Shown here one piece after another: positions 27,687 to 32,316 of a stretch of 64,000 nucleotides of DNA. The position numbers and the translations under genes are program-made. The notes below the pieces were generated by a model. It ran no database searches. It was not told the origin of the DNA and saw nothing but the letters and a program-made list of their open reading frames with translations. Source of the DNA: Candidatus Aphodovivens excrementavium (GTDB taxonomy: Bacteria > Actinomycetota > Coriobacteriia > Coriobacteriales > Eggerthellaceae); assembly GCA_018715935.1 (NCBI GenBank), contig DVKR01000029.1, positions 62,001 to 126,000 of the forward strand, given 5' to 3'. Positions within the stretch are counted from its first letter, which is position 1. Each line of letters opens with the position of its first letter.

Positions 27687-28692
27687 TTATGATAGCCGTT
27701 TGACGGTGCGGCGGCAGTGTGCCGATATCTCGGATTGCATAGGCGCGGCGATTTTATCGATACCGCGCAAGTCTTTGTGGGCATCGACAATCTCGTTGAG
27801 AGCCGAGGGAACGATGTCTGCCATAGCGCGGAACCGCTCGATCAGCATGTTCGAGCCAAGCCCCAGGTCGGTCAGCCCTGCGTCCCGAACCATTTTCTCA
27901 ACATTGGCGCTTCCTACCGAACCGAATCTGTTTTCGTCTCCGATTGAGAGCGCAGCTCGCAACGGCTTTCTTTTCTGAGGCGTTAAGCTGCGATACGGAG
28001 CGATGGAAGCTACGTCATAGAGGGGCGCGATACGGACATCGTTGTCTGCCAACAGGAGCAGCGAGTGGTTTTTGGCATGGGCGTCAGTGGCTCCAATTAG
28101 GTAGTTGAAGAACAGGTAGAGGATGAAGCGATAGATGTTTTCCCGAGCGTTTGCGCCAGTGGAACGCAGAAGCTCAATGATGCGCGGCGTGGTGGGGCCT
28201 CCCTGCTCAGTGTATTTGACAGACGGGTCGATGCTGAGCGCCTGGCAAAGATCCTCTTGGTGGATTCTTTCCACCCTTCCGTCTTCCAGGCGCTTTCTGT
28301 CGTATCGTTTGATGACGATCGCAGGCTCTTCTCCGAATTGACGGTATTCGGTTTCGGCAACGGGAAGCCCGATTTTATAGGCGGTTTTCATGGAGAGGTA
28401 CTCCACGAGTGCCTGATATTCCATCCCCGTAACGCCGGGCTTTAAGATGTGCGTCGTTGCCGAGGCTCCCGTGCATTCAAACCAGTGCCCCTGTTCAAGG
28501 CGAAGCGCGATTTTAGCCTGCTGGCCGCCTAGTGACCACTGCGTCGTTATATCGTGCAAGTCCCTTGGGCATCGAAAGAGACAAAGCTGGGCCATCGTAT
28601 CCTAAAAGGTATTCGAAGCTAAGCGATCCGTGTTTGTCTTCATAGAGGGTTCCGCATCTCTGGCCATTGATGTAGACGGCAAGCGACGTCAT
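27687..28692 (-). pseudogene. hipA-like kinase gene with internal deletion and frameshift
   Basis: The 5' piece (from ATG 28692) encodes SLAVYINGQRCGTLYEDKHG...LSLSMPKGLARYNDAVV, the HipA N-terminal subdomain. The 3' piece, in another frame, continues WSLGGQQAKIAL (the Ser-containing P-loop), VIKRYDR, then TDAHAKNHSLLLL with the catalytic Asp. The two are joined near 28540 where about 90 residues are missing, and the frame shifts at the junction. No hipB-type HTH gene is adjacent. The long 3' frame (27687-28595) could still be translated, but a complete kinase cannot be made. Confidence 0.8.
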
Positions 28693-28873: not shown

Positions 28874-29575
28874 TTATCCGGCCGAAGGCCGCGGATGGGC
28901 TTTCAGCAGCCAAGCGAACGCCGCTGCCATCACGATCAGCCCGGCTGCATCGAACGCGATGAAGCGCAGGATGCTGGCTGCAAGGACGTCGTGTCCGGCG
29001 GGAAGCCCCAGCAAGATGGCGCTTTCGCCAACGAGTCCGATTGCCTGCTGCACCAGGACAACAACGTAGAGCGCCCGAAAGCGTCGCGGGCTTGCGATGA
29101 CGGCGGGATAGGTGGCGTTCCACATCAGAAACGCCACGCCTAGTCCGCGCACTGCAGCTTCGCCGGCAGTTCCCGACAGCTCGTAGGCACCGGCGAACGA
29201 TGCGGGCCAGAACACGAATTGCAACGCGCACTGCACATTGAGCACGAACACAATCGCAACGGCGACGCGTGCGACGATGGCGGGGAGGTCGGCTCTTTCG
29301 AAAAGGGGGAAGGGGCCTCGCAAGGCCCCTTCCTGTCTCAGCTGGCGCTTCCATGCGCGTTGCTCTCGCGTGCGGTTGTACTTGGCGTCGCCGTGTGCGC
29401 CGTGTCCGCAAGCAAATCCGTTGTAGCACGGCTTGGCGTCGAGGGTCGCCTCTTCGGAGGAGCGGTGCCAAACGGCGCCGTCTTTCTCGCGCGCGAGCGC
29501 GCGCACGTTACGCTGCGCTTCCCGCGCGGCGCGTTGAGCCTTCGACTTGCCAGAGCGCTTCGCTTTCTTAGACAT
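28874..29575 (-). CDS. Membrane protein with basic N-terminal region, unknown function
   Basis: 233 residues. Residues 1-95 are hydrophilic and very basic (SKKAKRSGKSKAQRAAREAQRN...) with two cysteines in KPCYNGFACGHG. The remainder holds four predicted membrane helices. No family is recognised with confidence; the helical half superficially resembles DoxX-like or other four-helix proteins. ATG 29575 follows a GGGGGTGAGG region. The gene stands alone. The sequence AHGDAKYNRTREQRAWKRQ before the first helix may be a cytoplasmic nucleic-acid or ribosome contact (guess). Confidence 0.6.
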   Translation of the reverse strand: MSKKAKRSGKSKAQRAAREAQRNVRALAREKDGAVWHRSSEEATLDAKPCYNGFACGHGAHGDAKYNRTREQRAWKRQLRQEGALRGPFPLFERADLPAIVARVAVAIVFVLNVQCALQFVFWPASFAGAYELSGTAGEAAVRGLGVAFLMWNATYPAVIASPRRFRALYVVVLVQQAIGLVGESAILLGLPAGHDVLAASILRFIAFDAAGLIVMAAAFAWLLKAHPRPSAG

Positions 29576-29670
29576 GGGCCTCACCCCCTTCCGTATATTG
29601 CCTGGATGCTATTGTAGCGTGCGGAGGGCGAGGGCAGAAGCGTCAGCCGGGCGGAGCTTTGTCGCCACGC

Positions 29671-29769
29671 TCGAAAGAGCAGCATCGTGTAAATGCATCC
29701 ATTATTTCACGGCGGCATCGTGTATATTGAACCGTCATTTCACGGCGGCATCGTGAAAACCCGAGGTGA
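29671..29769. repeat. 33-bp tandem array with TTTCACGGCGGCATCGTG core
   Basis: Three units start at 29671, 29704 and 29737. Units 2 and 3 share a 19-bp identical core (29704-29722 and 29737-29755); unit 1 keeps only GCATCGTGTA. In unit 3 the core is a palindrome TTTCACG-GCGGCAT-CGTGAAA. The rest of each unit differs. The region lies between divergently oriented genes. It is not CRISPR-like, because it has only two and a half units with a ~14-bp variable part. Confidence 0.7.
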
Positions 29770-29831
29770 GCATGCTCAAACGAAAAGGGCAACGCTGAGA
29801 AGACGACGGAGGTCAGCCTTCTCATAAATGA

Positions 29832-29977
29832 TGCAGCTTTCCAAAACCAAAATAGGAGAAACTCGCAGCTTTCCAAAGATAAATTATGGATGGACTGCAG
29901 CTTTTCAGGATCTTTTCGTGAGCAAAGTGCAGCTTCTCACCGGATTCGGGGCGCGTCTGTCTGTGTCGGCTTTCCAA
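29832..29977. repeat. 32-bp periodic array of GCAGCTTTYCA motif
   Basis: TGCAGCTTTCCA (29832), CGCAGCTTTCCA (29864), TGCAGCTTTTCA (29896) and TGCAGCTTCTCA (29928) recur at exactly 32-bp intervals; a degraded fifth copy (GGCTTTCCA) lies near 29968. The 20 bases between are unrelated. Since 32 is not a multiple of three, the pattern is not a protein repeat. Three helical turns between copies would put a binding protein on one DNA face. Confidence 0.7.
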
Positions 29978-30081
29978 CGAAAGGTGCGCCATGTCACACA
30001 TAGGCCCGCCTGAGCGGTATCATGGGCTCCATAAAACGAGCGCTGGGCTTGAACGTCCGGCAGGCACAACAGGAGACGCTC

Positions 30082-30270
30082 ATGTCGCAGAAAAAGGAAC
30101 GCAAGGTAACCGAACGTGCGCGAGCGCGCGAGGAGCAGCTGCGGACGGAGATGATGACGAACGCGAAGCGCAAGCCGCCCTTGAGTGCGGTAGTGGGCGT
30201 CGTCGCAACCGTGGTCGTCTGCGTGGCGATCGTGGTTGTTGTCACGTTGCTAGTTGGCGCACAACACTAG
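30082..30270 (+). CDS. Small single-pass membrane protein
   Basis: 62 residues: a highly charged N-terminal half (QKKERKVTERARAREEQLRTE) followed by one hydrophobic helix (about residues 35-58) and a short tail. AGGAGACGC precedes the ATG. It ends 14 bases before the mazG start, so the two are likely cotranscribed. No homologous family is recognised. Confidence 0.6.
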   Translation: MSQKKERKVTERARAREEQLRTEMMTNAKRKPPLSAVVGVVATVVVCVAIVVVVTLLVGAQH

Positions 30271-30284
30271 AGGAGGAGCCTCGC

Positions 30285-31316
30285 ATGGCAGAAATCCGCG
30301 ATTCCCAAAACCCCGCTTCCGCAAGTCCCAAAGCCCCCGTAACCGCAGCCGAGCGCATGGCGAACCCCCGACCGCACCCCCATTTCAAGGCGTTTTGCGC
30401 CACGATTTCTGCCCTTCGCGCGCCCGATGGGTGCCCGTGGGACCGCGAGCAAACGCACGAGAGCATCGCGCACAACATGATTGAAGAAGCCTACGAGGCG
30501 GTTGATGCCATCGAGTCGGGCAACGTCGCGCATTTGCGCGAGGAGCTAGGCGATGTGTTGCTGCAGGTGGTGCTGCAAAGCCAGATTGCCGAGGATGCAG
30601 GTGATTTCACCATCGACGACGTGTGCGCCGACGTCAATGCCAAGATGATACGCCGTCATCCGCATGTGTTCGGCGACGCGTCTGCCGAAGACGCTTCGGC
30701 CGTACTTGGATTGTGGGATCGGGTCAAGCTTGCCGAGAAGGAGGCCGCCGACGCGCAGGCGCAAGACCAAGGGCAAAAGCGCGAAGGGTTGCTCGATGGC
30801 GTGCCCACGAGCTTTCCCGCACTTATGCAGGCGCAAAAGATTTCGCGCAAGGCCGTTGCCGCCGGCTTCGAGTGGGACTCCCTCGACGATGTATGGAGGC
30901 AGGTTTTTGAGGAAATTACCGAGCTCAAAGAGGCATACGCCGCTGCGCCGAAGGGCTCGAAGGGAAAAATCAGCGTGACGGGCGCACTGCCCGCAGGCGA
31001 TGGTGGCGAAAGCTCAGCGAGAGTCGAGGGCGACAAAGAGCTCGGAGGGGACGCAAGCTCCGATAGCGTCAAGACTCCCGAAGAGCTGGTGACGGCTGCC
31101 GAGCTTGAATTCGGCGACGTTCTGTTCGCTTTGGTGAACGTGGCGCGGAAGATGGGGATTGATTCTGAAGACGCTTTGCGAGCGACGTGCAACAAGTTCC
31201 GTAAGCGGTGGTCGTATATGGAGCAGTGCGCGTGGGATGCGGGGCGCAGCATCGAGGACTTGTCTACCGCCGAGCAAGAACAGCTGTGGCAGGAGGCTAA
31301 ACGGCAGCTTCGCTAG
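30285..31316 (+). CDS. mazG: Nucleoside triphosphate pyrophosphohydrolase MazG
   Basis: 343 residues. It hydrolyses NTPs to NMP and PPi and clears aberrant nucleotides. The first MazG helical bundle has CPWDREQTHESI, EEAYEAVDAI and EELGDVLLQVV; the second has ELEFGDVLFALVNVARKMGID and ALRATCNKFRKRW. Between the second-domain helices is a ~50-residue Gly/Ser/Glu-rich insertion (GSKGKISVTG...SSDSVKTPEE) not usual for the family. Start ATG 30285 follows GAGGAGGAG; the frame extends upstream but without support. Confidence 0.92.
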   Translation: MAEIRDSQNPASASPKAPVTAAERMANPRPHPHFKAFCATISALRAPDGCPWDREQTHESIAHNMIEEAYEAVDAIESGNVAHLREELGDVLLQVVLQSQIAEDAGDFTIDDVCADVNAKMIRRHPHVFGDASAEDASAVLGLWDRVKLAEKEAADAQAQDQGQKREGLLDGVPTSFPALMQAQKISRKAVAAGFEWDSLDDVWRQVFEEITELKEAYAAAPKGSKGKISVTGALPAGDGGESSARVEGDKELGGDASSDSVKTPEELVTAAELEFGDVLFALVNVARKMGIDSEDALRATCNKFRKRWSYMEQCAWDAGRSIEDLSTAEQEQLWQEAKRQLR

Positions 31317-31401
31317 GGAGAAATCGAAGGGGTTCGGTGTGGCGGTGTCGGGGCAATTGTTCTATCATGATTGCGCAGTGTCCACGCAAGGAGACCCACT
31401 C

Positions 31402-32316
31402 ATGACGAAATCGGATGTAACCCGCCCGAGTGATGATTACCGCACGCTAGGCGGAACGCGCATTGTTCTTTCCGCCGCTCCTGCTTGGCCGGCGACGCGC
31501 CCGACGGGGTGGCGCGCGGCTCCAGAAGCCGACTGGTCAACCACAAAAGGGAAAAAGGTTCATGTGGCGCCGCCGCGCGCAATCAACCCGAACGCACAGC
31601 AGGGCGAACGCGACGAAGTGGACCCTATCGAGCAAGAGCCCCTCATCGCGCTGGACGCTCTTGACGAGCAGTCTCTTCCGGCTGCCGACTTGGCGCGCGT
31701 GCGCAGCGCCGAGCGAAAGACGCGCGAGATTCTCCAAAAGTACCGCGCGGCTATGCGTGAGATGATGGTGCGCTGCGAAATCATCGACCAAGACCTCAGT
31801 CTCAAAAAGCATCGCAACCCCATCCATCATGTGGAGTCGCGCATCAAAAGCCCCGAAAGCATTTTCGAGAAGCTGGGCCGCTACGGCAAAGAGCCCACGC
31901 TTGAAAACATGGAGCGCTACATCATGGACATCGCGGGCATCCGCATCATCTGCTCCTACATCCAAGATGTCTACAACATGCTCGACCTGCTCAAACGCCA
32001 AGACGACCTAGTTATCGTCAACGTGAAGGACTACATCAAAAACCCCAAGCCCAACGGGTATCGCAGCCTGCACGTCATCATCCGCATCCCGGTGTATTTC
32101 CTCGATAAAAAAGAGCTCATTCCGGTGGAAATCCAGCTGCGCACCATCGCCATGGACTTTTGGGCCAGCCTGGAGCACGACCTGAAGTACAAGGCCGTGC
32201 GAGAAATTCAGGGCGTCAACGCCTATCACGAGCTGAAGGACTGCAGCCGCATCATTGAAGAGGTGGAAAGCCGCATGCAGGTGCTGGCGCGCGCCCTCGA
32301 CGCGGAAGACGACTAG
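31402..32316 (+). CDS. Small alarmone (ppGpp) synthetase, RelA/SpoT domain
   Basis: 304 residues. Residues ~110-300 form the RelA/SpoT nucleotidyltransferase domain: RIKSPESIFEKLGRYG, DIAGIRIICSYIQDVYNML, NPKPNGYRSLHVI, and PVEIQLRTIAMDFWASLEHDLKYK. No HD hydrolase or TGS/ACT domains are present, so it is a small alarmone synthetase of the RelQ/YjbM kind. It has an unusual ~105-residue N-terminal extension, Pro/Ala-rich and probably disordered. AAGGAGACCC precedes ATG 31402. It makes (p)ppGpp from GTP/GDP and ATP. Confidence 0.9.
   Translation: MTKSDVTRPSDDYRTLGGTRIVLSAAPAWPATRPTGWRAAPEADWSTTKGKKVHVAPPRAINPNAQQGERDEVDPIEQEPLIALDALDEQSLPAADLARVRSAERKTREILQKYRAAMREMMVRCEIIDQDLSLKKHRNPIHHVESRIKSPESIFEKLGRYGKEPTLENMERYIMDIAGIRIICSYIQDVYNMLDLLKRQDDLVIVNVKDYIKNPKPNGYRSLHVIIRIPVYFLDKKELIPVEIQLRTIAMDFWASLEHDLKYKAVREIQGVNAYHELKDCSRIIEEVESRMQVLARALDAEDD

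Follow-up and report, generated by a model that had tools for sequence, protein, structure and literature searches.

What are the two sets of short repeats that recur, at steps of 33 and 32 bp, in one noncoding stretch of an actinobacterial genome, and do they have a function? The window, i.e., the whole 64,000-nucleotide stretch that was analysed, lies within a 218,850-base contig (G000:C21) of the 2.08-Mb draft genome of an uncultured gut actinobacterium, and the species is represented by one genome. The original prediction had seen in the repeats either an array of binding sites for a DNA-bending or partition-type protein or a dispersed genomic repeat family. The repeats are positioned as follows:

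29671..29759: array 1, period 33 bp; the 19-bp core is present twice in exact form and once, upstream, in part
29705..29725, plus strand: array 1 core, left half TTTCACG, imperfect right half CGTGTAT
29738..29758, plus strand: array 1 core within the perfect 7-7-7 palindrome TTTCACG-N7-CGTGAAA
29833..29939, plus strand: array 2, four GCAGCTTTYCA-like cores with unrelated 21-bp linkers
29796..29976: wider CTTYYCA cluster of seven words, one at 29796 (minus) and six at 29818, 29837, 29869, 29901, 29933 and 29970 (plus)

The 19-bp core of array 1, ATTTCACGGCGGCATCGTG, had been predicted to recur at 33-bp steps. We found it exact at 29704-29722 and 29737-29755, one such step apart, with a third, partial copy (GCAGCATCGTG) one step further upstream at 29679-29689. 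The cores of array 2 read GCAGCTTTCCA, GCAGCTTTCCA, GCAGCTTTTCA and GCAGCTTCTCA at 29833, 29865, 29897 and 29929; the 32-bp steps are exact, as had been claimed, but the fourth copy is one base off the consensus GCAGCTTTYCA. Identity in array 1 was 29/30 in the cores compared to 8/14 in the linkers (Fisher p = 0.0024), and between neighbouring units of array 2 it was 31/33 in the cores compared to 18/63 in the linkers, with a composition background of 0.25 (Fisher p = 2.5e-10); both p-values are somewhat overstated since the core limits were set by eye on the same data.

The word CTTYYCA reaches beyond array 2. The seven words of the cluster fall within 181 bp at spacings of 22, 19, 32, 32, 32 and 37, and three of them, flanking array 2, stand outside the motif definition (0.12 expected, P about 3e-4, tested post hoc). 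A direct scan covered 1.117 Mb of the genome (54%), taken as stretches; here the cluster was the sole case of at least four words per 200 bp, and array 2 was the only noncoding, non-CRISPR array of four copies with chance-level linkers in 1.12 Mb. Arrays this strong did not appear in order-2 Markov sequence modelled on one third of the scanned stretches. The repeats in both arrays are real, and chance is excluded.

The gene setting is the following:

27687-28595, minus strand: HipA_C-domain ORF (302 aa) in which Pfam matches just the C-terminal kinase domain
28874..29575, minus strand: divergent ORF, an N-terminal module joined to a predicted membrane protein
30082..30270, plus strand: gene that opens the mazG operon, coding for a predicted single-span membrane protein of 62 aa
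30285..31316, plus strand: mazG, nucleotide pyrophosphohydrolase (Pfam PF03819)
31159-32316, start uncertain, plus strand: RelA/SpoT-domain ORF after mazG (Pfam PF04607)

Both arrays lie in the 0.5-kb spacer that separates the divergent membrane-protein ORF from the operon of the small membrane protein and mazG. The spacer is bounded by the ORF starts at 29575 (minus) and 30082 (plus), which bears out the prediction that the repeats are noncoding and places them between divergent genes, one of the positions that had been proposed for checking. Local G+C in the spacer is as low as 0.42. Genes flanking the locus, from 26.0 to 34.4 kb of the window, code for housekeeping, HipA_C-domain or unknown proteins. 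The nearest relatives in the mazG search were Candidatus Aphodovivens avistercoris and an uncultured Eggerthellaceae genome, and the chromosomal gene order around mazG was otherwise preserved among relatives. At the position of the 62-aa ORF, both sister species encode proteins that resemble it in the N-terminal and membrane segment.

With regard to transcription, two candidate elements are of interest:

30018..30023, plus strand: candidate -10 TATCAT within GCGGTATCATG, mazG operon
29611..29616, minus strand: TACAAT, candidate -10 for the divergent gene, with no good -35, from a reading of the sequence

Several relatives carry GCGGTATACT directly upstream of mazG, and its counterpart here is GCGGTATCATG. 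From this correspondence the start of mazG transcription is predicted near 30030; relative to it, array 2 would span about -197 to -91, and one more CTTYYCA word would fall at about -60. Similarly, if the TACAAT at 29616-29611 (minus) is the -10 of the divergent gene, array 1 would extend from about -67 to -155 of that gene. Strict scans for promoters returned none. Both arrays would lie upstream of predicted start sites; the candidate -10 of mazG is shared with relatives, and the case of the divergent gene is weaker.

The divergent ORF is itself a composite. The C-terminal part corresponds to the membrane protein adjoining mazG in many relatives. The N-terminal 98 residues fall into a small, conserved family of the Eggerthellaceae that has no Pfam match and is elsewhere encoded by a separate gene; residues W36, L45, P49, N52, G57, G59, H61, G62, K65, R68 and W75 are invariant in this family. 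Structure prediction for the N-terminal part, run to see if it might be an autoregulator that binds DNA, gave only a low-confidence model of three helices (mean pLDDT 66, pTM 0.31). Across the 30 loci with the best matches to the C-terminal part, the two parts are joined only in this genome. A GC-rich inverted repeat was also observed near the junction. Upstream regions of the separate N-part genes in relatives have the ribosome-binding region alone in common. A rearrangement that imported the N-part gene together with its upstream region may have given rise to the long spacer that now holds the arrays.

How widely are the arrays distributed? A pattern search of the whole 2.08-Mb genome returned no second copy of either array. 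Single core words (at most one mismatch) do occur elsewhere, but outside the locus the noncoding sequence within the 1.117 Mb shows no enrichment of them; a regulon of similar operator sites was not seen in the genome. A 516-base query had no match in the relatives searched, and a pattern search of 137-138 family genomes found no arrays comparable to either one. Both sister species within the genus lack the arrays and have different sequence at the same locus, and conservation at orthologous promoters was found for neither array. A dispersed repeat family is rejected on these grounds, as only this locus carries the arrays in its own genome and in the 137-138 family genomes. Thus, no other copies exist in the genomes searched and the spacing is not conserved, an outcome that the original prediction had named as counting against it; the repeat-family and widely conserved readings fall, while a local operator survives.

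Several look-alikes were considered and set aside: a perfect 33-bp tandem with the first eight bases the same in an order-level genome (G038), a 31-bp tandem beside a LytTR-like ORF in a family genome of another genus, at an unrelated place (G027), and a 15-bp tandem in a further family genome (G103). Viral, phage and plasmid collections yielded no array and no phage match. A viral contig with a single exact 18-mer was at about the chance expectation estimated for the collection size, and a plasmid match of 40 bp at 87.5% was short and came from an unrelated organism. A mobile element with terminal inverted repeats was also rejected, since only short imperfect pairs were present. A literature search in general terms found nothing about these motifs.

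The words are kept while the linkers are free, the phasing is close to an integral number of helical turns, extra words occur in both orientations, and the arrays appear to be positioned upstream of two likely promoters. For these reasons we interpret the arrays, with moderate confidence, as two species-specific operator clusters for putative regulators; repeated words more conserved than their linkers are what operators should show, and both arrays show them. The spacer would then be a regulatory region common to two divergent transcription units. Array 1 would offer two to three sites to a single DNA-binding protein, which probably reads TTTCACG-N7-CGTGAAA as a dimer, and array 2 with the flanking CTTYYCA words would be a site cluster for a second protein that binds asymmetrically. 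By their position, the arrays could be upstream activating sites or sites of loop-mediated repression. While the repeats, the core-limited conservation, the uniqueness and the placement of the arrays are observed, we infer protein binding, cooperativity and the direction of control.

This interpretation is weakened by the absence of the arrays from the sister species and the family, by the lack of a visible regulon (the genome has no further operator with this core) and by the frequency of short intergenic repeats in the genome. Conservation or a regulon is usual for operators, but neither strictly defines a species-specific one. Of the original prediction, an array of binding sites fits the data (conserved cores, free linkers, steps of about three turns, divergent genes), while its bending or partition-type protein is unsupported. 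A more elaborate version appears unlikely to us: a newly arisen species-specific module in which the nucleotide-pyrophosphohydrolase operon and the joined membrane-protein gene divergent from it are under the joint control of two different regulators, each with its own array phased at three turns. The feature is most likely an ordinary, if neat, promoter feature: local binding sites for gene control in one species only.

The alternative that survives best is that both arrays are decayed short tandem duplications, left by replication slippage in a low-constraint spacer and having no present function. With noncoding sequence defined roughly from ORFs, we counted about 60 further short repeats between genes per 1.1 Mb, and this abundance keeps the explanation alive. 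The 31-bp tandem at an unrelated place in another genus, the 8/14 positions retained by the array 1 linkers, the 18/22 positions shared by units 1 and 2 of array 2, and the lack of conservation among relatives also speak for it. On the other hand, slippage duplicates a whole unit and should leave the differences evenly spread, but here they are concentrated outside the cores, as the Fisher tests given above indicate. The additional CTTYYCA words also count against simple slippage, which yields neither unequal spacing nor reverse orientation. We regard such decay as possible, though rather doubtful; a decayed duplication with selection acting on the core is possible as well. The roughly 60 repeats include intergenic short tandem arrays with periods 23 and 26, at L166:8435-8520 and L168:18857-18960 (G000:C3).

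That the arrays serve replication, partition or recombination (as iterons, a centromere or accessory sites of an integrase) and stem from an integrated element is very improbable. Iterated direct repeats at helical spacing do resemble iterons or parC repeats, and the HipA_C-domain ORF lacking a matched N-terminal part, together with the joined ORF nearby, hints at rearrangement. However, adjacent rep or par genes would be expected, and none of the flanking genes examined (26.0 to 34.4 kb) is a gene for replication, partition or a recombinase. The database searches, with no phage match, one short unrelated plasmid match and viral contigs free of the array, and the preserved chromosomal gene order around mazG also oppose it. 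The partition or bending role proposed originally is without support: the arrays are at one locus only, no partition gene was among those flanking genes, and parS-like sites are on another contig. The latter are two sites TGTTTCACGTGAAACA, 71 bp apart, at L195:2642-2728 (G000:C32).

Even slightly less credible is that the stretch acts as RNA, either a leader or a small RNA in which hairpins or protein-binding loops recur. TTTCACG and CGTGAAA could pair as a hairpin, and array 2 could fall in a long 5' leader if transcription of mazG began far upstream; yet the predicted fold was no better than that of shuffles (z = -0.46), there was no Rfam match in the arrays, and the candidate -10 of mazG is downstream of array 2. 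A CRISPR array was rejected: its repeats would be about 24-40 bp long and its spacers much the same length, whereas the cores here have only 11-19 bp and the linkers 14-21 bp. A CRISPR-like array with a 36-bp repeat, GTTTGATTACCAGTCAGTTTGTCACTGCTCCAAAAC, and a period of 65-66 was observed on another contig, at L199:1-1500 (G000:C20).

Operator clusters confined to one species thus remain our preferred explanation. The arrays give no pointer to a new kind of system; rather, they would provide a small testable example of a promoter region gaining operator clusters within one bacterial species, beside the conserved mazG.

Among known systems, plasmid iterons and parC-type centromeres share with the arrays the iterated direct repeats and near-integral helical spacing, but the repeats described here are chromosomal and few in copies, have two different cores and adjoin no rep or par gene. 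Short intergenic tandem repeats derived from slippage are similar in period (20-70 bp), in the small number of copies, in intergenic location and in lineage specificity; unlike them, the arrays have kept the cores and lost the linkers, with extra words out of phase and inverted. For CytR, distances between half-sites of two to three helical turns are reported to have been shown possible, although unseen in nature (PMC3454398). Compared to CytR operators, the arrays have no sequence relation and no regulon, and their binder is putative; still, they are like such multi-site operators with helically phased repeats (PMC3454398) in that a short word recurs several times ahead of a promoter, here a predicted one, phased to one face of the helix.
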